Part shown: piece after piece, positions 18,394 to 33,036 of the stretch
Numbering within the stretch: position 1 is the first letter of the stretch
Layout: every line of letters begins with the position of its first letter
Source: Streptomyces misionensis
Lineage (GTDB): Bacteria > Actinomycetota > Actinomycetes > Streptomycetales > Streptomycetaceae
NCBI RefSeq assembly: GCF_900104815.1
Contig: NZ_FNTD01000004.1
Coordinates: forward strand, 6,447,001 to 6,511,000
Direction: 5' to 3'
Length of the DNA: 64,000 bases
Notes under the pieces: model-generated
What the model was told of the DNA's origin: nothing
What the model saw: the letters and a program-made list of their open reading frames with translations, nothing else
Database searches by the model: none
Program-made: the position numbers and the translations under genes

Positions 18394-19812
18394 GTGCCGG
18401 CGATGCTCGATGCGGTCGTGGTGGGGGCGGGGCCGAACGGGCTGACCGCTGCCGTGGAGCTGGCCCGCCGGGGCTTCACCGTGGCCGTGTTCGAGGCGCG
18501 GTCCACCGTGGGCGGCGGCGCCCGCACCGAGGAGCTGACCCTGCCCGGGTTCCGGCACGACCCGTGCTCGGCCGCCCATCCGCTCGGCATCAGCTCGCCC
18601 GCCTTCCGCGCCCTGCCCCTCGACCGCTACGGCCTCGAATGGCTGCACCCCGAGCTGCCCATGGCCCACCCGTTCCCGGACGGCACCGCCGCGGTGCTGG
18701 CCCGCTCGGTCGCCAAGACGGCCGCCTCCTTCGGGCCGCGGGACGCGGGGGCGTACCGCCGACTGGTCGAGCCGCTGGTCGCCCACTGGGACACCCTCGT
18801 GCGGGACTTCATGTCGCTGCCGTCGACCGCGCTGCCCCGTGACCCCCTGACCCTCGCCCGCTTCGGCCTCGCCGGGCTGCCGCCGTCCACCTGGCTGATG
18901 CGCCGGTTCAAGGACGAACGGGTCAAGGCCCTGTTCGCCGGGCTGGTCGCCCATGTGATGGCCCCGCTGGACGGGTTCGCCACCGGCGCCATCGGCCTGG
19001 TCTTCGCGCTGGCCGCGCACGCCCACGGCTGGCCGGTGGCCCGCGGCGGCTCCCAGGCGATCTCCGACGCCCTCACCGCCCACCTCGCGGACCTCGGCGG
19101 CGCGGTGCACACGGACTACGAGGTCAAGCGGCTGGACGACCTGCCGCCCGCCCGTGCCTACGTCTTCGACACCTCGCCCGCCGCCCTCGCCCGCATCGCC
19201 GGTTTCGGCGGCTATTACGACCGCTACCGCTACGGCCCCGGCGTCTTCAAGATCGACTACGCGCTGGACGGCCCGGTGCCCTGGACCGCGCCGGAGGCCC
19301 GCGTCGCCGGCACCGTGCAGATCGGCGCGAGCCAGGCCGAGATCGGCACCGCCCTGCGCGCCGCCTCCCGCGAGGGCCGCGCCCCCGAGCGGCCGTTCAT
19401 GATCACCGTGCAGCCGGGCGTGGTCGACCCCACCCGCGCCCCCGAGGGCAAGCAGGTCTTCTGGGCGTACGGCCATGTGCCGAGCGGCTGGTCGGGGGAT
19501 CTCACCGACGCCATGGAACGCCAGCTGGAGCGCTTCGCCCCCGGCTTCCGCGACCGCGTGCTCGCCCGCGCCGTCGCCGGTCCCGCCGAGCTGGCCGCCC
19601 ACAACGCCAACTACATCGGCGGCGACATCGCCTGCGGCGCGGCCTCCGGACTCCAGCTGCTGCTGCGGCCCCGGCCGACCCTGTTCCCGTACCAGACCCC
19701 CCACCCGGCCGTCTTCATCTGCTCGTCCGCCACCCCGCCGGGCCCCGGGGTGCACGGCATGTCCGGGCACAACGCGGCCCGGGCCGTCTGGCGCAGGCTG
19801 CGGCAGACATGA
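18394..19812 (+). CDS. FAD-dependent oxidoreductase, phytoene-desaturase (CrtI)-like
   Basis: 472 residues from GTG 18394 (AAGGGG upstream); ATG 18403 is a close alternative. The Rossmann motif [20 protein letters not shown] at the N-terminus binds FAD. A second CrtI-type block lies near the C-terminus ([18 protein letters not shown]). It resembles the COG1233 group of phytoene desaturase/retinol saturase-like amine oxidases. No carotenoid genes surround it, so a carotenoid role is unlikely and the substrate is unknown. Its stop overlaps the ATG of the macro-domain gene by four bases, so the two were once co-translated. Confidence 0.85.
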
Positions 19813-20185
19813 CCGCCCTCCTTCCGGTGCGGGGAGACATCACCCGCCGGCGCGCCGACGCGATCGTCAACGCGGCGAACTCCTCGCTGCTCGGCGGGGG
19901 AGGGTGGACGGCGCCATCCACCGCCGCGGGGGCCCCGCGATCCTCGCGGAGTGCCGGGCGCTGCGCGCCTCCCGCTACGGCCGGGGACTGCCCACCGGCC
20001 AGGCCGTGGCCACCACGGCGGGGCAACTCGACGCGCGGTGGGTGATCCACACCGTCGGCCCGGTGTACGAGGGCCCGGACAGCGATCCCGCGCCGGTCGC
20101 CTCCTGCTACCGGGAGTCGCTGCGGGCGGCCGACGAGCCGGGCGCCCGGACCGTCGCGTTCCCGGCGCCCCGGCTGCCCGGCGCC
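19809..20185 (+). pseudogene. Frameshifted, truncated macro-domain protein
   Basis: Reading starts as a canonical macro domain (GDITRRRADAIVNAANSSLLGGG) at ATG 19809, which overlaps the upstream stop. Near 19902-19904, where relatives read GGG-GTG-GAC, one G is missing. The domain then continues one frame over (VDGAIHRRGGPAILAECRAL, TGQAVATTAGQLDARWVIHT, VGPVYEG) up to about 20166. There the expected STGVYGYP block is replaced by unrelated sequence. The gene is thus broken twice. Macro domains bind ADP-ribose or remove it or O-acetyl-ADP-ribose. A sequencing error could explain the first lesion but not the missing C-terminus. Confidence 0.75.
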
Positions 20186-20330: not shown

Positions 20331-21446
20331 TCAGGCCCGCGTGCGACCGACCACGCGGCCCACGGCGTTGCGCACCGCGAGGCCCGGTCGGGTGCGGGGC
20401 ACCATGAGCCTGGAGAGCAGACCGACGCGTCGCTGCCGCGGGCCTACCTCACGGCGGAGCCGCGACTCGTAGGCGGCGAAGGCGCGGGCGTGATCACCGG
20501 GGTGGGCGGAGAGCTCTTCTGCGAGGGCGTACGCGCCCGCCATCGCCATGCTGGACCCGTCGCCCAGCAGGGATGTCGCCGCCGCCGCGTCCCCGAGCAG
20601 TACGACCCGTCCGCGGGACCATGAGGGCAGCCGGACGGTGGTCAGGGGGTCGAAGAACGGAGCCGGGTGGTCGAGGAACGCCGCCACGAGTTCCGGTGCC
20701 CGCCACCGCACGTCGGCGTAGGCGTCGGCCACGGTCTGCTTGTGAAGGGCGATGTTCTTGCGGTCGTGGGGCGCCGGCTGTGCGGCCCGGAAGGTGAAGA
20801 TCGCGAGTGGAGTCGTCCGCGAAGGGTGGAGGACCAGCATCCGGTTCGGCACGGTCAGCATCGTCATCTCGGTCGGGTCCTCGATGGCGTCGGGTTCCAA
20901 CGGGACGGTCGCGCCGTACAGGCCCAGGTCGCTCGCGAACTGCCGCTCGGGGCCGAATACCAGGCGCCGTACGGTGGAGTGCATCCCGTCGGCACCGACC
21001 ACCAAGTCGAAGCGCCGTGGCGCGGACCGCCGGAAGGTGACGTCCACCCCGCTTTCATCCTGGTCGAGAGCGGTGACCGTGTCGTCGAACAGGAACTCGG
21101 CCTCGGTCTGCGCCGACCGGTAGAGCACCTCGGACAGGTCGGCCCGGGTCACCTCGACCGTCGGCGCCTTGTCCGAGGTGAGCGGGAGTTGCAGGATCCG
21201 CCTGCCGTCGGGGTCGAGCAGGGTCAGCGATCGATTGCGGGTGGCGAGCCCGCGGAGCTGCGGAAGGATGCCCATGCGGTCGGCGACCGGGATCGCGGGC
21301 CCCTTCACGACCACCGCGCTACCACCGGAGCGCAGCTGCCGGGCGTGTTCGACGACCGTCGGCCGGAATCCATTCCGGGAGAGCCAGTATGCGAGTGCGG
21401 GCCCTGCGATTCCGGCACCGACTATCAGCACCTCGGGCTTCTTCAT
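20331..21446 (-). CDS. FAD-dependent monooxygenase (PHBH/TetX-like, class A)
   Basis: 371 residues with all three class A flavoprotein monooxygenase motifs: GAGIAGPALA (about 10-19, ADP of FAD), the DG motif GADGMHSTVRR (about 152-162) and GDAAAATSLLGDGSSMAMAGA (about 285-305). Such enzymes hydroxylate aromatic rings or inactivate aromatic antibiotics (tetracyclines, rifamycins). The compact size and the pairing with an MFS pump and drug-type regulators favour detoxification. It is divergent from the ArsR-type gene at 21616, with two copies of the AGGTACG-N8-CGTACCT operator in between, so it should be repressed by that regulator. Codon use is visibly less GC-rich than in flanking core genes. 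Confidence 0.87.
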   Translation of the reverse strand: MKKPEVLIVGAGIAGPALAYWLSRNGFRPTVVEHARQLRSGGSAVVVKGPAIPVADRMGILPQLRGLATRNRSLTLLDPDGRRILQLPLTSDKAPTVEVTRADLSEVLYRSAQTEAEFLFDDTVTALDQDESGVDVTFRRSAPRRFDLVVGADGMHSTVRRLVFGPERQFASDLGLYGATVPLEPDAIEDPTEMTMLTVPNRMLVLHPSRTTPLAIFTFRAAQPAPHDRKNIALHKQTVADAYADVRWRAPELVAAFLDHPAPFFDPLTTVRLPSWSRGRVVLLGDAAAATSLLGDGSSMAMAGAYALAEELSAHPGDHARAFAAYESRLRREVGPRQRRVGLLSRLMVPRTRPGLAVRNAVGRVVGRTRA

Positions 21447-21540
21447 GACGATGACCTCGCGGAGTATCGATGACCAGGCCCCCGGCGAGTGCCGGGCCGG
21501 GTCTCAGGGGGAGGCGGCACCGGGCAGCGCAAACGGGTCA

Positions 21541-21562
21541 AGGTACGGTCAGATTCGTACCT
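21541..21562. promoter_or_regulatory. Operator A (AGGTACG-N8-CGTACCT)
   Basis: Perfect 7-bp inverted repeat AGGTACG (21541-21547) and CGTACCT (21556-21562) with an 8-bp spacer, between the divergent FAD monooxygenase and ArsR-type genes. It shares its exact architecture with six other sites in this block. Confidence 0.75.
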
Positions 21563-21579
21563 CAGTGGAGCATATCTTG

Positions 21580-21601
21580 AGGTACGATGCAAGCCGTACC
21601 T
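21580..21601. promoter_or_regulatory. Operator B (AGGTACG-N8-CGTACCT)
   Basis: AGGTACG (21580-21586), an 8-bp spacer, then CGTACCT (21595-21601), 39 bp from operator A. It ends directly at the ribosome site (GAAGGGAG) of the ArsR-type gene at 21616, so binding would block its own expression. Confidence 0.75.
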
Positions 21602-21615
21602 GAAGGGAGTGCCGC

Positions 21616-21951
21616 GTGGCCGGGATCAACCTGGTCGGCCCCGAGGTCGATGCGCTCGATCTGGGTGCGGTGATTCGCGCCCTCGCCGACGAGCACCGTC
21701 GTTCGGTGGTGACGGAGTTGGCCGCCGACCGCAGCGACAGCGAGCGGGGCTGCAACTCGTTCAATCTTCCGATCTCGAAGCAGACCCAGACCCACCACTT
21801 CCGGGTCCTGCGCGAAGCAGGTCTTATCGATGAGATCGACTACGGCAACCGCAAGGGCATCCGACTGCGACGCGTGGACATCGAGAAGAGATTCCCCCGG
21901 CTGCTCGCACTCCTGGGCGCAGAGTCCCCGGGCGGTACTGCTCCTCGCTGA
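21616..21951 (+). CDS. ArsR-type winged-helix regulator 1
   Basis: 111 residues from GTG 21616 with GGGAG six bases upstream. ArsR-like fold: LGAVIRALADEHRRSVVTEL (helix 1-2), SFNLPISKQTQTHHFRVLRE (recognition helix) and a wing at EIDYGNRKGIRLRR. There is no metal-binding Cys pair of the ELCVCDL type, so the inducer is probably organic. It has the same length as, and is about two thirds identical by eye to, the regulator at 25366-25701. Two operator copies precede it. Likely a repressor of the divergent FAD monooxygenase and, through shared sites, of the other genes of the block. Confidence 0.87.
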   Translation: MAGINLVGPEVDALDLGAVIRALADEHRRSVVTELAADRSDSERGCNSFNLPISKQTQTHHFRVLREAGLIDEIDYGNRKGIRLRRVDIEKRFPRLLALLGAESPGGTAPR

Positions 21952-22522
21952 ACACGGCTGAGCACACTGGAAGGAGTCCGAGTCGGCCCTGGGCCGCGAG
22001 CTCGGCCGGATCCGGCTCGTGCCCGGCTCGCAGGTGGCCGAGCGCGACGCGGACACGAATGGATCGGTGTCGCTTCGACCATCGTCCCGCGCTCATGATC
22101 GGCGCCGAGCTCTTCCGCGCGCTCCCTCACGCCAACACCCACTGAGGTTTCCTCAACCTGCGTGCGGGAGGCGACCTCCATCGGAGGCGCGACAACCCAC
22201 CGTCAACGGGTGCCGACCGATGGAACCGAGCGCCCACCACCTACCCCGATCGACCGAGCGGCGACCCCCGGCAAGCCGCGGCCGCCGTACTCGATCTCGC
22301 GGTCCGGACCGTCCGGGAAGGGACGAGCGACCGGCCGGAGCGCGACGTGTAGCTGACACGAGCGGCACGGTCACCGCGGACACCACGCACTCGGAGCGGG
22401 TCCGCGGTGTCCGCCGCACGCTGTGCCGTGGTGCCTGTCCGTGGCTCGGGCCCCGCGCGGGTGTGAGGACCGTGCAGTCACACGCCGGCGGCCTCGGCCA
22501 CTCCGCGCGGCGGCCCGGTGGT
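21952..22522. other. 571-bp non-coding stretch between ArsR1 and the convergent MFS gene
   Basis: No convincing gene. A short open stretch (ATG 22059 to TGA 22143, reading MDRCRFDHRPALMIGAELF) and a neighbouring frame before it look like eroded coding sequence, but I cannot assign them to a family. No operator copies, long repeats or terminator with a U-run were found. The base composition is nearer to the 20-26 kb block than to core genes. Confidence 0.4.
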
Positions 22523-23884
22523 TCACGCCTGTGTGCCGACCTGATCGGCGATCGGGTCTTCCTGGTGCTGGTCCGGGTGGGCCGACAGGGTGCGCGCAGC
22601 CGGGCTCTTGTGCGCCCGGTGGAGCACGTTGATGACCACGGCCAGCAGCAGGGGCAGGAGCGCCAACGCGATCACCACGAGATGGAAGACCTCCGCGTAG
22701 GCCCCGGCGGCTCCGCTGCCACCTGCCGAGACTTTCCGGGCGAGGCCGGGATCGTCGACGCGGGCGGACAGGAGTCCGGCCGTCACCGCGGCGTAGACCC
22801 CTACGGCGGCCGCCTCACTGCCCAGACGGACGAAGTTCAGCACACCGGCCGCGGCCCCCGCACTACGGGCGGGCACGGCGGCGAGGGCCTCCCCGTCGAT
22901 GAGGCCGATCGGGAGACCCCAGCCGAATCCCAGGAGGACCATGGGGAGCACAAGGGTCCACTTCGGGGCGTCGGGGCCGAGGAGCAGCATGCCGAGATCA
23001 CCGACGACGAGCACGGCGAGCGACACGTTGATGATCACCATGGGGGTGATCCGGCGTACGCGGTGGACCAGTGTCGTGGCGAGGACCGGAGCGACGAGCA
23101 CCGGCAGCGTCAGGGGCAGGAGGAACACGCCGGCCTGGCCGGCACTCATGCCGAGGACCGCGCTCAGCGCGACGGGCAGATAGGTCAGCAGGGTCACGTA
23201 GCCCAGGGACCCCGCGACCGGCACCAGGATGACGGCCAGGAAGTACCGGTTGCGGACCGGTGAGAAGTCGATCAGCTTGCGGTTGCCCTCCACAGGGTGC
23301 CTGTGGTCCTTCGGCAGGGCACCACCGGCCAGCAGGGCCACGATCGAGATGGCACCGGCGGCGGCGAAGACGCCCTGCCACCCGACGAACGTCACCAGCC
23401 CCCCGGAGAGGGTCGGTCCTGCGGCCAGGCCCAGACCGACCGTTGTGCCCAGCAAAGCGAAGGCACGAGCGCGCCGGGCACCGGAATACGCGTTGGACAG
23501 CAGGGCCGTGCCACCGGTGGCCACCGCGGCGCCGCCCACTCCGGCGAGCAGGCGTCCCGCGTCGAGAACGTACAGGTTCGGGGACACGACGCTGAGCACG
23601 GAGGCACCCAGGATGAACAGGGAACCGATCATGAAGGTGCGCTTGTGTCCGAGCCGGTCGGAGAGTGCTCCCCAGACCAGGGTGAACAGGGCGAACGAGA
23701 CGTTGAACCCATTCACGACCCACTGGAGAGCGGTCGGGGAGTCGCCCAGGTCTCGGGAGATGTCGGGAAGGGCGATCGCTGTTCCCGCGATGCTGATGGG
23801 CAGGACGAACATCGTGAGCAGGATGACGGGCGTCAGGAACCATGGCGGGTTCGCCCCCTCCGCATGCCTCGCAGTGCTGGTCAC
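22523..23884 (-). CDS. MFS drug:H+ antiporter (DHA2-like)
   Basis: 453 residues. GTG 23884 has GAGGGG eight bases upstream. It is a major-facilitator pump with about 14 hydrophobic segments. The inter-helix 2-3 motif is WGALSDRLGHKRTFMIG (about 71-87) and a motif C-like segment is GLGLAAGPTLSGGLV. Two operators of the local AGGTACG type lie just upstream (23899-23961), so it is controlled with the FAD monooxygenase and luciferase-like genes. It probably exports the compound, or modified compound, that those enzymes act on. The charged tail after residue 425 (HRAHKSPAARTLSAHP) is unremarkable. Confidence 0.87.
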   Translation of the reverse strand: MTSTARHAEGANPPWFLTPVILLTMFVLPISIAGTAIALPDISRDLGDSPTALQWVVNGFNVSFALFTLVWGALSDRLGHKRTFMIGSLFILGASVLSVVSPNLYVLDAGRLLAGVGGAAVATGGTALLSNAYSGARRARAFALLGTTVGLGLAAGPTLSGGLVTFVGWQGVFAAAGAISIVALLAGGALPKDHRHPVEGNRKLIDFSPVRNRYFLAVILVPVAGSLGYVTLLTYLPVALSAVLGMSAGQAGVFLLPLTLPVLVAPVLATTLVHRVRRITPMVIINVSLAVLVVGDLGMLLLGPDAPKWTLVLPMVLLGFGWGLPIGLIDGEALAAVPARSAGAAAGVLNFVRLGSEAAAVGVYAAVTAGLLSARVDDPGLARKVSAGGSGAAGAYAEVFHLVVIALALLPLLLAVVINVLHRAHKSPAARTLSAHPDQHQEDPIADQVGTQA

Positions 23885-23898
23885 TGGGCAACCCCTCT

Positions 23899-23920
23899 AG
23901 GTACGAAAATGTTCATACCT
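23899..23920. promoter_or_regulatory. Operator C (one mismatch)
   Basis: AGGTACG (23899-23905), an 8-bp spacer, then CATACCT (23914-23920), one base off the consensus arm. It begins 14 bp upstream of the MFS GTG on the minus strand, overlapping its leader as sites B and G do for the regulators. Confidence 0.7.
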
Positions 23921-23939
23921 AGAGTCAAGCAGGAAGTGT

Positions 23940-23961
23940 AGGTACGAATCAAGCCGTACCT
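23940..23961. promoter_or_regulatory. Operator D
   Basis: AGGTACG (23940-23946), an 8-bp spacer, then CGTACCT (23955-23961), a perfect copy 41 bp from operator C. It serves the MFS promoter. The same sequence could influence read-through from the luciferase-like gene, which ends at 24056 and is transcribed toward it. Confidence 0.72.
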
Positions 23962-24055
23962 GATGTGATCTGACGGACAGGCGCGTTGTCGGCGGTCGGG
24001 CAGGCGGTCGTGCCCGCCCGGCCGACCGGTCGGGCACGACCGCCTCGGCGTCGCG

Positions 24056-25096
24056 TCAGCGGCTCCGGCTCCAGCCGAGGGCCGCCGGGGCGATGTGCTC
24101 GGCGATGTTCTCCAGGATCCGGAGGTTCTCGTCGCTTCCGAGGAGGTTGGGGATGGTGACCAGCAGGGTGTCCGCGGTGCGTACCGCTTCGTCCTTCGAC
24201 AGAGCCTCCACCACCGTGTCGGGCTCCCCGATGAAGCTCTTGCCGAACCGCGACACGGCTCCGCCCAGAACGCCGACGTGTTCTCTCGACCCCTGTGCGG
24301 CGGCCGCACCGAACAGGGCGCGGTCGCGGTCCGAGACGATGGGCAGGATGCTGCGTACCACCGCCACCCTGGGTGTTCCCGGATGGCCCGCGCGGTGCCA
24401 GGCGTCGCGGAAGAGCTCGATCTGTTCCGTCTGCAGCTGTGCGAACGGGACCCCGGTGTCCTCGGAGAGCAGCGTGCTGCTCAGCAAGTGCATCCCTTGT
24501 TCTCCGGTCCACTGGGCGCTCTGTCGTGTGGCCGAGCCCCACCAGATCCGCTGGGGCAGGGTGCCGGATCGGGGTTCGATCGAGAGCGGCACGGTGGCAC
24601 CGGTTTCCGCGGGGTCGCTCATCGCCATCGGGGCCCCCGCGATCGCCGCCCTGAAACGCTCCGTGTGTGCCCGTGCCATGTCCCCAGCGCGGGAATCGTC
24701 GGTGGGGCCGGGGTGGTGGCCGAAGGCTTCGTAGCCCCGCAGAGCGGGTTCCTGTGACCCCCGGCTCAGGCCGAGTTGCAGGCGGCCGCCGCTGATGAGG
24801 TCGGCGGCGGCGGCGAGTTCGGCCATCATGAGCGGGTTCTCGTAGCGCATGTCTATGACGGCGGTTCCGAGTTCCATCCGCCGCGTCCGCGCCGCCGTCG
24901 CCGCCAGCAGTGCCCAGGGGCTGGCGAACTGCCGCTGGTAGTGGTGCACGCGGACCCAGGCGCCGTCGAAGCCGAGGCGCTCGGCGCCGACGGCGATGTC
25001 GATGTGCTGGGTCAACGCTTCGGTCGCGCCGCCGGCCTGTGAGCCGGGCGTGTGCTGGTGGTGTCCGAAAGAGAGCAGTCCGAGCCGCTTCCTCAT
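24056..25096 (-). CDS. Luciferase-like (LLM) flavin-dependent oxidoreductase
   Basis: 346 residues from ATG 25096, with AAGGAAGG eight bases upstream. It has the luciferase-like TIM-barrel pattern: LGLLSFGHHQ at strand 1, AERLGFDGAWVRVHHY, then MELGTAVIDMRYENPLMMAE and SGGRLQLGLSRGSQEPALRGYEAFG. This is the FMN monooxygenase branch (alkanal-monooxygenase-like) rather than the F420 branch seen at 5846-6868. It is divergent from ArsR regulator 2 with three operators in the gap. It probably acts with the FAD monooxygenase on the same small molecule, or responds to its aldehyde product. Confidence 0.86.
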   Translation of the reverse strand: MRKRLGLLSFGHHQHTPGSQAGGATEALTQHIDIAVGAERLGFDGAWVRVHHYQRQFASPWALLAATAARTRRMELGTAVIDMRYENPLMMAELAAAADLISGGRLQLGLSRGSQEPALRGYEAFGHHPGPTDDSRAGDMARAHTERFRAAIAGAPMAMSDPAETGATVPLSIEPRSGTLPQRIWWGSATRQSAQWTGEQGMHLLSSTLLSEDTGVPFAQLQTEQIELFRDAWHRAGHPGTPRVAVVRSILPIVSDRDRALFGAAAAQGSREHVGVLGGAVSRFGKSFIGEPDTVVEALSKDEAVRTADTLLVTIPNLLGSDENLRILENIAEHIAPAALGWSRSR

Positions 25097-25237
25097 CTTC
25101 TCGCCTTCCTTCGGCCCTGGAAAAGGGTCCGAATCCGGCCGGTCGCGCGACGGTCGCTGGAGGCGGGTCGCGGTTTCGTCGATTGGTGAGCACCGGCGCC
25201 CTTCCGGGCGGAGGTGACGGCGGCCACGACCGGCAAT

Positions 25238-25259
25238 AGGTACGTCCAATGTCGTACCT
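25238..25259. promoter_or_regulatory. Operator E
   Basis: AGGTACG (25238-25244), an 8-bp spacer, then CGTACCT (25253-25259). It is a perfect consensus copy nearest the luciferase-like gene in the divergent promoter region. Confidence 0.75.
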
Positions 25260-25277
25260 TAGTGAAGCATGCTCGCA

Positions 25278-25299
25278 AGGTACGAGACAAGTCGTACTT
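25278..25299. promoter_or_regulatory. Operator F (one mismatch)
   Basis: AGGTACG (25278-25284), an 8-bp spacer, then CGTACTT (25293-25299), 40 bp from operator E, the same phasing as A-B (39) and C-D (41). Confidence 0.72.
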
Positions 25300-25327
25300 G
25301 ATGGGTGGTCGGCAGAATCGCCTTCTC

Positions 25328-25349
25328 AGGTACCGTGGACGTCGTACTT
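25328..25349. promoter_or_regulatory. Operator G (two mismatches)
   Basis: AGGTACC (25328-25334), an 8-bp spacer, then CGTACTT (25343-25349). It lies just before the GGAGG of ArsR regulator 2, the same position as operator B in front of regulator 1. The weaker match could set a higher threshold for autorepression. Confidence 0.6.
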
Positions 25350-25365
25350 GTTGGAGGTGGGCTCA

Positions 25366-25701
25366 ATGGTGGAAGCGGTCGTGACCCAGGCCGACACCGA
25401 TGTCCTGGACCTGGGTGCGGTGCTGCGTGCTCTCGGCGACGAACACCGGCGCGCGGTGATGATCGAGCTGGCCGCGGACAGGAGTGACGGTGAGCGCACC
25501 TGCCACTCGTTCAATCTTCCCGTGAGCAAGCAGACCAGGACTTACCACTTCCGCACCCTGCGCGACGCCGGGCTGATCTGCGAGACCAACTACGGGAACA
25601 AGAAGGGCGTCAGACTTCGCAGAGCGGAGATCGACCGCCGCTTCCCGGGGCTCCTCGACCTGCTCGCCGCGGAGTTCAGCCGGGTCAACCCGGCATCGTG
25701 A
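25366..25701 (+). CDS. ArsR-type winged-helix regulator 2
   Basis: 111 residues; ATG 25366 with GGAGG eight bases upstream. It is a paralogue of regulator 1 with the same fold and landmarks: LGAVLRALGDEHRRAVMIEL, SFNLPVSKQTRTYHFRTLRD and ETNYGNKKGVRLRR. No metal-binding Cys pair is present. Three operators precede it. The last bases of the gene, including its TGA, touch the breakpoint of an IS481-type remnant at about 25700, so the C-terminus may have been set by that insertion. The recognition helix differs from regulator 1 at only a few positions, consistent with both binding the same operator family. Confidence 0.87.
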   Translation: MVEAVVTQADTDVLDLGAVLRALGDEHRRAVMIELAADRSDGERTCHSFNLPVSKQTRTYHFRTLRDAGLICETNYGNKKGVRLRRAEIDRRFPGLLDLLAAEFSRVNPAS

Positions 25702-26044
25702 GGACCCGCTCGATGGTGATGCCTTGCCGGGCGAACCAGGCGGTTGCTCGTCGTAGGAAGCCGGCGCAGGTCGCGGCGGTCTCGTCGGGGAGGTCTTCGG
25801 TGTAGGCGAGGCGGGAGTGGTCGTCCAGGGCGGTGTCCCCTCGGTGCGTCACGGCGAACCCGCCGTCGCCCTCGTCGGCACCCGCCCGCCACTTCCCACC
25901 TGGTGACCGGCCCCGGCCACATCGCCGCCCTCGTCGGGCAGATGCCCTATGCCCGACGGCACCCTGGTCGGTACGCACGGGCCGCGGACACCATCCCAGC
26001 TTGTCCCAGGTCATCCCGGGTCTGCCGCCCGCTCCGGCGGCCAT
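25702..26044 (-). mobile_element. IS481-family transposase remnant
   Basis: On the minus strand, the stretch ALDDHSRLAYTEDLPDETA, then FLRRATAWFARQGITIERVLT, matches the catalytic core of IS481-type DDE transposases (first Asp in DDHSR). The reading breaks where relatives have the second catalytic Asp (LTDNG), and here reads LTMPG-stop. Upstream of DDHSR the frame is also scrambled. No inverted repeats were found. It is a dead fragment whose end coincides with the stop codon of ArsR regulator 2. Confidence 0.7.
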
Positions 26045-26086
26045 CCTCCCTGCCCAGGGCCCTTCGCTGGTCTGCCCAACCAGCGG

Positions 26087-26487
26087 TCAAGCGGAACGAG
26101 TGCCCGGCCGCCAGCACCTCCCGGTGCCCGTGGTCGGAGGCTGCTGGACTGCCCGGTTCAAACGATGGTCGGCGGGGTGTGTCGGGTGGCTGCGGCGGTG
26201 GGGGAGCGGGATGCCGAGGAGGGCGTCGGCGGAGGTGCGGGCGATGTCCCGGGCGGTCTGGCCGTCTGCCGGGGTGCGCAGCACGCGGCGGACCAGGGTC
26301 ACGGACAGGCCGGCCCGGCCCGGTCGGCGATGTCCTGCGCGGACATTCCCCATTCGCGCAGCCGTGCAGCCCACCGGGCGGCGGCATGCGGTGGGACACG
26401 GGCGGACAGACCGCGCGCGTGGTCCTGGTTGCGCCGGCGGCGGCCCCGCAGTGCTGCGGAAGCGGATTGCTCCTCGGTGAGTGGCAT
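26087..26487 (-). pseudogene. Frameshifted helix-turn-helix protein remnant
   Basis: Reading from ATG 26487 gives MPLTEEQSASAALRGRRRRN, and later AARLREWGMSAQDIADRAG, the first half of a helix-turn-helix. A tandem GGCCC duplication (26312-26321, plus strand) adds five bases and shifts the frame. The second half, LSVTLVRRVLRTPADGQTAR with SADALLGIPLP, continues one frame over and then decays. It resembles the HTH head of actinobacterial phage- or plasmid-related DNA-binding proteins. Together with the IS481 fragment it marks a graveyard region between about 25.7 and 26.7 kb. I see nothing else in the rest of that stretch. Confidence 0.6.
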
Positions 26488-26724
26488 GGCGGTTTCCTGC
26501 TGCGCGTTCGGTGTGCCGGCTCACCGAACGCGCCTCCGCCGACAGAGCAGTCCTTCTGCGTAGTGGCTGGCATCACCGGGTCCCTCGCCTTCCGGGCCCC
26601 CGCGGTCCCACGGCACGAGCCGCCTGTTCGGGGGTACCTGCTGGGGGTGCGCGGCGCCCGGCACCGAGGAATGCTCAGGCGCCGTGGCACGGTCCGTGCG
26701 GGAACGACCGGAAGGCCACGAGGT

Positions 26725-27441
26725 ATGGCACGTACGCGGGCACAGGCGAGCACCCGGCATCCCAGGCATGAGCGCAGGGGAGAGGCACGGCTCCCGGCGG
26801 TGGTCGCGACCCTCGCCGCGATCGCCCTGTACCTGCTGCTGCCGCAGCGGCTGCTGATCGCTCCCCGGTACGTCCTGCCCGCCCTGGAGTGCCTGCTGCT
26901 CATCCCGCTTATCGCGATCAACCCCAAACGGCTGACCCGGCAGACGAAGACGTTCCGCGTGCTGTCGCTGACGCTCGTGGGCGTCATCGTGGTCAGCAAT
27001 CTGGTGGCGCTGGTCATCCTGGTCCACGAACTGCTCTACGCCGGGGTGAAGGACGGCCGGTCCCTGCTGGTGGCCGCGCTGCAGATCTGGCTCACCAACA
27101 TCATCGTCTTCGGGCTGGCCTACTGGGAGCTGGACCGGGGCGGCCCGGTCAGCCGCACCCAGGCACCCCGCTCGGCCATGCCGCTGGCCGACTTCCGTTT
27201 CTCCCAGGACGAGAACGACGACGCCGTCCAGGAAGTCGCCGACGGAGCCAGCGGCACCTCGGACTGGGTCCCCACACTGATGGACTACCTGTACGTGTCC
27301 ACCACCAACTCCACCGCCTTCAGCCCGACCGACACCATGCCGCTGTCGACCCGCGCCAAAGCCCTGATGGGGGTGCAGAGCATCTCCGCTCTGCTGACCT
27401 CGCTCCTGGTGATCGCGCGGGCCGTCAGCATCCTGCGCTGA
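26725..27441 (+). CDS. Integral membrane protein, DUF1345/ion-channel-like
   Basis: 238 residues from ATG 26725 (GAGG close upstream, GAAGG further). Hydrophobic segments lie at about 29-45, 50-66, 77-100, 110-135 and the C-terminal 212-235. The C-terminal part, MDYLYVSTTNSTAFSPTDTM, then a final helix ending VIARAVSIL, has the layout of a pore loop plus last helix in two-helix K+ channels. A TTNSTAFSP segment sits where TTVGFGD would be, so a K+ selectivity filter is absent. DUF1345 proteins have a similar ending. Function unknown; the gene is isolated, downstream of pseudogenes. Confidence 0.75.
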   Translation: MARTRAQASTRHPRHERRGEARLPAVVATLAAIALYLLLPQRLLIAPRYVLPALECLLLIPLIAINPKRLTRQTKTFRVLSLTLVGVIVVSNLVALVILVHELLYAGVKDGRSLLVAALQIWLTNIIVFGLAYWELDRGGPVSRTQAPRSAMPLADFRFSQDENDDAVQEVADGASGTSDWVPTLMDYLYVSTTNSTAFSPTDTMPLSTRAKALMGVQSISALLTSLLVIARAVSILR

Positions 27442-32475: not shown

Positions 32476-33036
32476 GTGTACCTGGATTCAGGTGTCCGTA
32501 CGGCGGTGAAGGTGCTCGTGGTGGGGCACTTCGGGGTCGGCAAGACCACATGCATCGCCAGCATCTCCGAGATCGAGCCGCTGCGGACCGAAGAAGAGAT
32601 CACCGAGGCCAGCGAGGGCTTCGACGACCTGTCGGGCACCCCCGACAAGACCACCACGACGGTCGCCATGGACTTCGGCCGTCTGACCATCAACGACGAG
32701 GTGGTGCTCTACCTCTTCGGCACCCCCGGCCAGGAACGTTTCAAGGAGATGTGGGAGGAGCTGTCCAGGGGCGCCCTGGGCGCGCTCGTCCTCGTCGACC
32801 CGGAGCGGCTGTCCGAGTCGTTCCCCATCCTCGACCTGGTCGAGCGGTTCGGCCTGACGTATGCCATCGGCGTCAACCACTTCGACGGCACCCCCGGTTA
32901 TCCGCTCGAAGAGGTGCGCGAGGCCCTGAACCTGTCCGCGGACACCCCCGTCGTCCCCTGCGACGTCCGCGACCAGCAGTCGTCGGCGCACGCGCTGATC
33001 ACCCTCGTGCATCACCTCCTCTCCCTCATCGACTAG
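32476..33036 (+). CDS. cvnD: CvnD, Ras-like small GTPase
   Basis: 186 residues from GTG 32476. The P-loop GHFGVGKTT is at about 17-25. The switch 2 region carries GTPGQERF (about 82-89) and NHFDG stands for the base-specificity NKxD motif. This is the small GTPase of the conservon that couples the membrane complex to an output. It lies three bases after cvnC and 13 bp before the P450 gene, which has AGGAG in the gap. Confidence 0.92.
   Translation: MYLDSGVRTAVKVLVVGHFGVGKTTCIASISEIEPLRTEEEITEASEGFDDLSGTPDKTTTTVAMDFGRLTINDEVVLYLFGTPGQERFKEMWEELSRGALGALVLVDPERLSESFPILDLVERFGLTYAIGVNHFDGTPGYPLEEVREALNLSADTPVVPCDVRDQQSSAHALITLVHHLLSLID

Follow-up and report, generated by a model that had tools for sequence, protein, structure and literature searches.

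The DNA considered here is a stretch of 64,000 nucleotides from contig NZ_FNTD01000004.1 of Streptomyces misionensis, referred to below as the window, in which a block of five genes carries two related ArsR-like regulators and seven copies of one palindrome, AGGTACG-N8-CGTACCT, in its three promoter regions. From left to right, the genes encode a flavin adenine dinucleotide (FAD)-dependent monooxygenase (FMO, - strand), a first regulator (R1, +), a major facilitator superfamily transporter (MFS, -), a luciferase-like monooxygenase (LLM, -) and a second regulator (R2, +). The palindrome is called the operator throughout, and the features of the block are listed here with positions counted in the window.

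20331..21446, - strand: FMO, FAD-dependent monooxygenase, 371 amino acids, target of module 1 (PF01494, 73.7 bits)
21541..21562: operator, exact, spanning the predicted FMO transcription start (pattern search)
21564..21569, - strand: predicted FMO -10, TCCACT, TGC-extended (promoter pattern)
21580..21601: operator, exact, containing the predicted FMO -35, 14 base pairs (bp) ahead of R1 (pattern search)
21587..21592, - strand: predicted FMO -35, TTGCAT, within the operator (promoter pattern; opposite-strand CAA in 75/75 two-site relatives)
21616..21951, + strand: R1, ArsR-like winged-helix regulator, 111 amino acids (HTH_20, 26.2 bits, cut-off 27; 70% identity to R2)
22523..23884, - strand: MFS, efflux-type transporter, 453 amino acids (PF07690, 160.5 bits)
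23899..23920: operator, one mismatch, spanning the predicted MFS transcription start (pattern search)
23923..23928, - strand: predicted MFS -10, TTGACT, TGC-extended (promoter pattern)
23940..23961: operator, exact, containing the predicted MFS -35 (pattern search)
23947..23952, - strand: predicted MFS -35, TTGATT, within the operator (promoter pattern)
24056..25096, - strand: LLM, luciferase-like monooxygenase, 346 amino acids (PF00296, 102 bits)
25238..25259: operator, exact, spanning the predicted LLM transcription start (pattern search)
25261..25266, - strand: predicted LLM -10, TTCACT, TGC-extended (promoter pattern)
25278..25299: operator, one mismatch, containing the predicted LLM -35 (pattern search)
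25285..25290, - strand: predicted LLM -35, TTGTCT, within the operator (promoter pattern)
25328..25349: single operator, two mismatches, 16 bp ahead of R2, putative site of R2 autoregulation (pattern search)
25366..25701, + strand: R2, ArsR-like winged-helix regulator, 111 amino acids (HTH_20, 20.9 bits, cut-off 27; AlphaFold model)

The seven operators named in a preliminary description of this DNA were all recovered, four of them exact (21541, 21580, 23940 and 25238), two with one mismatch (23899 and 25278) and one with two (25328), and they all lie, as had been said, between the five genes of the block. R1 and R2 share 70% identity over 94 residues, slightly more than the two thirds first estimated, and they are the only matches to R2 in their own genome at E <= 1e-5. 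Neither reading frame is interrupted, and identity to the S. misionensis relatives is 93% for R1 and 96% for R2. Both HTH_20 scores fall under the curated value, and the AlphaFold model of R2 (predicted local distance difference test, pLDDT, 82.4) has RexT as its best structural match and also matches SrnR, HlyU, SqrR and CzrA, which places it in the ArsR/SmtB fold family. Among solved structures, FMO is nearest to 6-hydroxynicotinate 3-monooxygenase and Tet(50/51/55/56) (E 2.7e-49 to 1.3e-46); it falls in the same broad family as the tetracycline destructases and the PRK07588-type FAD monooxygenases but far under both curated cut-offs (194.1 bits against 550 for the destructase model NF033476; 284 bits against 454 for PRK07588). 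The nearest solved structure to LLM is 8k74, an alkanal monooxygenase alpha chain. The MFS transporter had been labelled a DHA2 pump, which is not established, as it scores 106.1 bits with the EmrB/DHA2 model TIGR00711, whose cut-off is 230.2.

An operator that goes with a regulator family

Within the window, eight matches to the operator with up to three mismatches were found, while 100 shuffles gave 1.83 on average and 5 at most; the eighth match, at 32912 with three mismatches, lies outside the block. Across the 8.47 Mb of the whole genome, the operator with up to two mismatches occurs at 26 places, 7 in the block and 19 elsewhere; the six copies with 0-1 mismatch are all within the block, and the 19 outside it all have two mismatches. 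A reversed control pattern gives 17, so that there is no clear excess of operators outside the block, and further targets elsewhere in this genome were rejected on that ground. The preliminary description had proposed such a scan, taking hits at many unrelated promoters as a sign against the regulon, and this is not the picture in the organism's own genome.

In other genomes the operator recurs, mostly adjoining relatives of R1 and R2. To characterize this association, loci were chosen by protein alone, using an alignment of R1, R2 and 33 of 69 database relatives made with no reference to the operator, which gave 79 loci from named genomes (the best 80 of 132 matched stretches), with 80 regulator genes in 1.20 Mb. 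An operator with at most two mismatches lies within 400 bp upstream in 80/80 of these genes, with two or more operators upstream in 77 and an exact one in 74, and 142 of the 149 operators with 0-1 mismatch in the 1.20 Mb fall in regulator upstream zones. Within the genus, the exact operator is present in 36 of 295 genomes, and a regulator relative (E <= 1e-20, anywhere in the genome) is found in 34 of these 36 as against 14 of the 259 genomes that lack it. Taken together, these counts indicate that the operator very probably belongs to the R1/R2 regulator family.

Two variations on the operator arrangement were seen in other loci. Exact operator pairs 28-29 bp apart (at about 1501-1551) stand before regulators of 45-55% identity in L095, L100, L101, L113 and L114, where the CAA/TTG centre is missing from its fixed place. 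In the two Promicromonospora loci (L022, L023), the operator nearer LLM has an altered right arm, GGGACCT, in both species.

A closer tie between protein and operator is suggested by residue 57 of the recognition helix, which is Thr in 102 of the 109 regulators, Ser in six and Asn in one alone, that of Streptomyces sp. SID3343 (L086). Both operators of this regulator read AGGTACA-N8-TGTACCT, with the same base altered in four of four half-sites, while A at half-site base 7 occurs in 0/398 half-sites of T57 regulators (some loci counted twice) and in 0/312 in the protein-chosen loci alone, only operators with at most two mismatches being counted. By alignment, residue 57 lies two positions past Lys55, the counterpart of RexT Lys50, a change in which is reported to weaken DNA binding (PMC8960804). 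The pairing in L086 may be read as a compensatory change, a single event with a partial second one rather than a statistical result, and since residue and base change together, it would tie the protein to the operator more directly than proximity does, making residue 57 a probable base-contacting residue.

Predicted promoters within operator pairs and the probable joining of two modules

In all 75 of the two-site relatives from the protein-chosen loci, the centre of the regulator-proximal operator contains AT[GT]CAA, and the other operator is AT-rich. The opposite strand of this motif reads as a -35 element (TTGCAT in 64 and TTGAAT in 26 of 98 CAA-selected pairs), and an extended -10, mostly TGC-T[CT]NACT, lies 17 or 18 bp from it, just ahead of the second operator. 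All three operator pairs of the window show this promoter pattern, each aimed at a gene on the - strand (FMO, MFS or LLM), and letter shuffles yield the pattern, as fixed after the three pairs had been seen, in 0.0025%, 0.0275% and 0.0085% of trials, respectively. A -10 of the regulator gene (TACGAT) in the nearer operator was also considered and is possible, but the -35 of the target gene is preferred, because a CAA-containing operator also lies upstream of MFS, where there is no regulator gene on that side.

The spacing of the operators follows from the same arrangement. In the block the steps are 39, 41, 40 and 50 bp, which agrees with the groups of about 40 bp and one 50-bp step of the preliminary description, and in the 75 two-site relatives the pair spacing is 40 bp in 58, 39 in 8, 41 in 6, and 42, 44 and 47 in one each, extending to 43-49 bp for regulators of 52-61% identity. 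Phasing, if that word of the description is taken to mean helical turns, is not supported, as the relatives range over 39-49 bp with the promoter geometry kept, and it is not needed as a cause of the 40-bp step. That geometry, with one dimer over the -35 and one over the start, would account for the 39-41 bp step and points to repression rather than activation. Six more loosely related regulators (L102, L107, L108, L118, L119 and L123) have TTGCAT-17/18-TAGCGT at the same place, and at least five of the six adjoin an ABM-type enzyme instead of FMO (Pfam having been run on L108, L119 and, beyond these six, L117). Across the family, the targets comprise ABM-domain as well as flavin monooxygenases, along with MFS pumps and a luciferase-like enzyme. 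A group of regulators of 53-61% identity (L102, L107, L108, L115, L118, L119 and L121) was seen to lie divergent to a small ABM-type monooxygenase, with operator pairs 43-49 bp apart. The single operator before R2 is also present in STR69.

The two regulators belong to separate lineages. In the regulator tree, R1 falls in a group of 78 rows (99/94) and R2 among the other 31, in a clade of seven (100/91), and the rows nearest to each come mostly from different loci. Local duplication of one regulator was rejected in view of these separate groups. The earlier wording of two near-identical repressors was also abandoned, as R1 and R2 stand in separate groups, are mostly single in the genomes examined, and go with different enzyme sets. 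Copy number was counted in 27 genomes, reached through 30 of the 79 loci, with a copy defined by at least 60% identity to R2. A single regulator is present in 23 of them, always with the operator: 13 are R1-type, 7 are looser relatives and 3 belong to the strict R2 clade (Umezawaea beigongshangensis, Actinosynnema sp. ALI-1.44 and Pseudonocardia sp. CNS-004). Two copies occur in the other four, S. misionensis, STR69, S. varsoviensis and S. iconiensis, and for S. varsoviensis and S. iconiensis the second copy lies on another contig and belongs to a looser group. The half-sites are the same in R1-only and R2-only loci.

The enzymes divide in a similar manner. FMO adjoins 78/78 of the regulators with at least 80% identity to R1, and L173, which is outside this set, is without it. 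The seven regulators of the strict R2 clade go with changing sets of MFS, LLM and a second FMO (FMO'). The window, S. misionensis and STR69 have both MFS and LLM, L018 has LLM, and FMO' is present in L017-L021 (5/7). FMO' is 64-71% identical to FMO, and a 28-row tree places it apart from the R1-type FMOs; the FMO tree, like that of the regulators, divides into two groups. STR69 has FMO' and carries both modules, separated by about 2.7 kb, the R1 module being inverted, and in S. misionensis the arrangement is that of the window, seven operators included. The absence of FMO' from the window and from S. misionensis is most simply read as a loss. In the reading favoured below, the block is a merger of an R1 and FMO module with an R2, MFS and LLM module, both of which would already have been using the same operator. 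An R1-type gene (at least 80% identity) occurs in 18 of the 295 genus genomes and an R2-type gene solely in the window's own. The FMOs beside R1-type regulators in Streptomyces, Amycolatopsis, Nocardia, Lentzea, Glycomyces and others are 83-98% identical to that of the window, and such high identity, with the regulator in so few genomes of the genus, suggests transfer or strong constraint.

Around the block, a macro-domain gene at 19809-20167 (+) has a frame change near 19900 by eye, its downstream part matching PF01661 from profile position 11, and looks like a broken or misread gene. Directly behind R2, a reading frame at 25685-26044 (-) has the look of a transposase end by eye, with no match in a Pfam search, and a Pfam search of 25744-27441 (+) gave no family.

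Relation to known ArsR-type sensors

Some fold likeness has been found to SrnR of Streptomyces griseus (Foldseek E 4.9e-5; 26% identity), which is a nickel-related ArsR whose biology differs from that of R1 and R2. The best solved match is RexT, an ArsR-SmtB redox sensor of Nostoc PCC 7120 (sequence E 7.8e-19; Foldseek E 3.5e-8, 37% identity). RexT has been described as a peroxide sensor with a reactive Cys41, which upregulates thioredoxin and has the operator ATTCG-N15-CGAAT (PMC8960804), a sequence different from that of R1 and R2. When RexT residues are carried over by sequence alignment, the position of Cys41 is kept as Cys46 in 109/109 regulators and that of Arg61 is kept in 106/109, whereas its partner Cys40 is never Cys in the R1/R2 family (mostly G or T), the Thr68 position is E, Q or D, and the Asn77 position is I, V, A or M. 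The full RexT set of an adjacent Cys40-Cys41, Arg61, Thr68 and Asn77, together with the RexT operator, is thus absent from this family, and RexT chemistry cannot be transferred to it unchanged, because Cys40 and two helper residues are not kept. It is possible that Cys46 serves as a single-thiol sensor, and the enzyme types point to a ligand that is probably aromatic or quinone-like.

The idea of two related ArsR-type repressors is not new, since such a pair is known in Hyphomicrobium denitrificans, where the homologous sHdrR and SoxR have 138 genes common to regulons of 165 and 170 (PMC12423496). In that system, both proteins have been described as sulfane-sulfur sensors, sHdrR having two conserved cysteines, and overlap between the regulons has been shown (PMC12423496). 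Judged by that account, R1 and R2 differ in having one invariant Cys and in that all their operators share a single sequence and lie within one small block. No description of the R1/R2 operator or module was found in searches of the open-access literature, and to that extent an operator code common to an actinobacterial subfamily, a target promoter inside an operator pair, and the merging of two modules appear to be new. R1 and R2 would represent a so far uncharacterised subfamily of ArsR-like proteins whose operator is defined.

A shared operator as the probable basis of one regulon

The reading favoured here, to which we give a probability of about 0.7, is that R1 and R2 both bind AGGTACG-N8-CGTACCT, that two dimers shut each target promoter, and that the merged block is one regulon with two sensors. 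In this model, R1 and R2 would act as ArsR-like dimeric repressors of a shared palindrome, with two operators bracketing one promoter at each of FMO, MFS and LLM. One operator would hold the -35 TTG, the -10 (TGC-TNNACT) would lie between, and the other operator, which starts 1-2 bp past the -10, would span the transcription start, so that two bound dimers would close the promoter. The dimers would then be freed by a small molecule on which the enzymes act, or by its reactive product, and the three genes would come on together. R1 would control itself through the operator pair that it shares with FMO, and R2 would use its own extra operator. Both regulators probably read the operator in this genome, because each type occurs alone elsewhere with the same operator, and because the modules were already using one operator, the merged block would act as one regulon. 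The preliminary description had proposed that both regulators read the same operator and switch the whole set; the single operator and the regulators as its readers are in keeping with the present findings, and the common control of the three targets is an extrapolation from them.

Several observations weigh against this model. Fourteen genus genomes have a regulator relative and yet no exact operator, and in the three of these that were inspected, L174 and L175 have only 3-mismatch sites beside the regulator, and L173 has no operator with up to three mismatches. Conversely, G024 (L109) and G134 carry an exact operator with no regulator relative at E <= 1e-20, the exact pair in G058 (L117) precedes a small monooxygenase gene with the regulator relative elsewhere in the genome, and in G042 operator and relative are apart. 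The operator before R2 (25328) is the weakest of the seven, and promoters could be made out for the three target genes but not for R1 and R2 themselves. As to the promoter pattern, only the 75 two-site relatives are unbiased for CAA, the 98 pairs having been picked by it; four spacings were tried for the -10 and the best one kept; the pattern tested by shuffling was settled with the window pairs in view; and most -10 hexamers are without A at position 2. The coupling of T57N with AGGTACA is one event and could not be repeated, because the AGGTACA palindrome was found in 0/392 genus genomes and no second such pairing turned up. The half-site counts cover close copies of the operator, and by direct reading the S57 regulator of L072 has three of four half-sites altered at base 7, not uniformly, while other S57 regulators keep G (21/22 counted S57 half-sites). 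Finally, the regulator tree was built on a small number of columns, and its bootstrap had not converged.

Other explanations have been weighed against the same evidence. It is conceivable, if unlikely, that only one regulator (say R1) controls the block, the other being too weak in the cell or having lost its function, as the helices of R1 and R2 are not alike at residues 53, 58, 60, 64 and 67 and the operator nearest R2 is the most degenerate. Against this, both genes are open frames that are well conserved in S. misionensis, lone R2-clade regulators elsewhere adjoin exact operators (L018, L020), and the same operator accompanies more distant regulators in which residues 56 and 58 are different. 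A similarly low likelihood attaches to insulated modules, in which R1 would act on the FMO pair and R2 on those of MFS and LLM, cross-talk being slight and discrimination lying in the central 8 bases. These bases do differ between pairs and the modules are separate in most genomes examined, but no half-site base was seen to separate R1-type from R2-type loci, the constant part of the operator centre is explained by the -35, and the sole FMO of the block is R1-type.

It is far less probable that another, global regulator reads the operators and that the ArsR-like genes are nearby by chance. Palindromes of this length are common to several regulator families, and G024 and G134 have the operator with no close regulator relative, but operators show no clear excess elsewhere in the own genome, the association holds in 80/80 genes under protein-first selection, and residue 57 and base 7 change together in L086. 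Also, in L173, which looks like a decaying copy or R1 relic, the regulator without FMO has an altered helix (Thr59 to Ala) and no operator. The least credible alternative is a metal-responsive ArsR/SmtB pair repressing a metal detoxification block, for which there are weak matches to the metalloregulator model (30.4 and 26.1 bits; cut-off 55) and a second Cys in R2, at position 72. Metal-sensing ArsR/SmtB proteins are marked by a Cys-rich alpha3 motif or a C-terminal His/Asp site, and neither the Cys nor the C-terminal His counts fit this among the 109 regulators: Cys46 is invariant and the single Cys in 99, further Cys occur in just 10, and a C-terminal His is not present in 100. In addition, the target genes code for enzymes of flavin type and for an MFS transporter.

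Within the shared-operator model, a doubtful extension is that R1 and R2 pair with each other as well as with themselves on the palindromes, the heterodimers and homodimers making up a two-input switch tuned to different chemicals, with the operator as the common code of a scattered actinobacterial family. The preliminary description had raised a threshold or two-ligand switch as a possibility, and none of the present observations points to different ligands. If the two-input reading is true, the sensors would have been fused through an inherited operator code, not through gene duplication on the spot, and if the common-code reading is true, any newly arrived module could plug into an existing regulon. 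More generally, from sequence alone, an uncharacterised regulator subfamily gains a probable operator, a promoter layout and a probable base-contacting residue, all of which are directly testable. The block is also a natural example of regulons being merged: its modules are separate in the majority of genomes examined and joined in three, two of which are without the enzyme expected to be redundant, and whether cross-talk between sister repressors is kept or used by cells thereby becomes a testable question.

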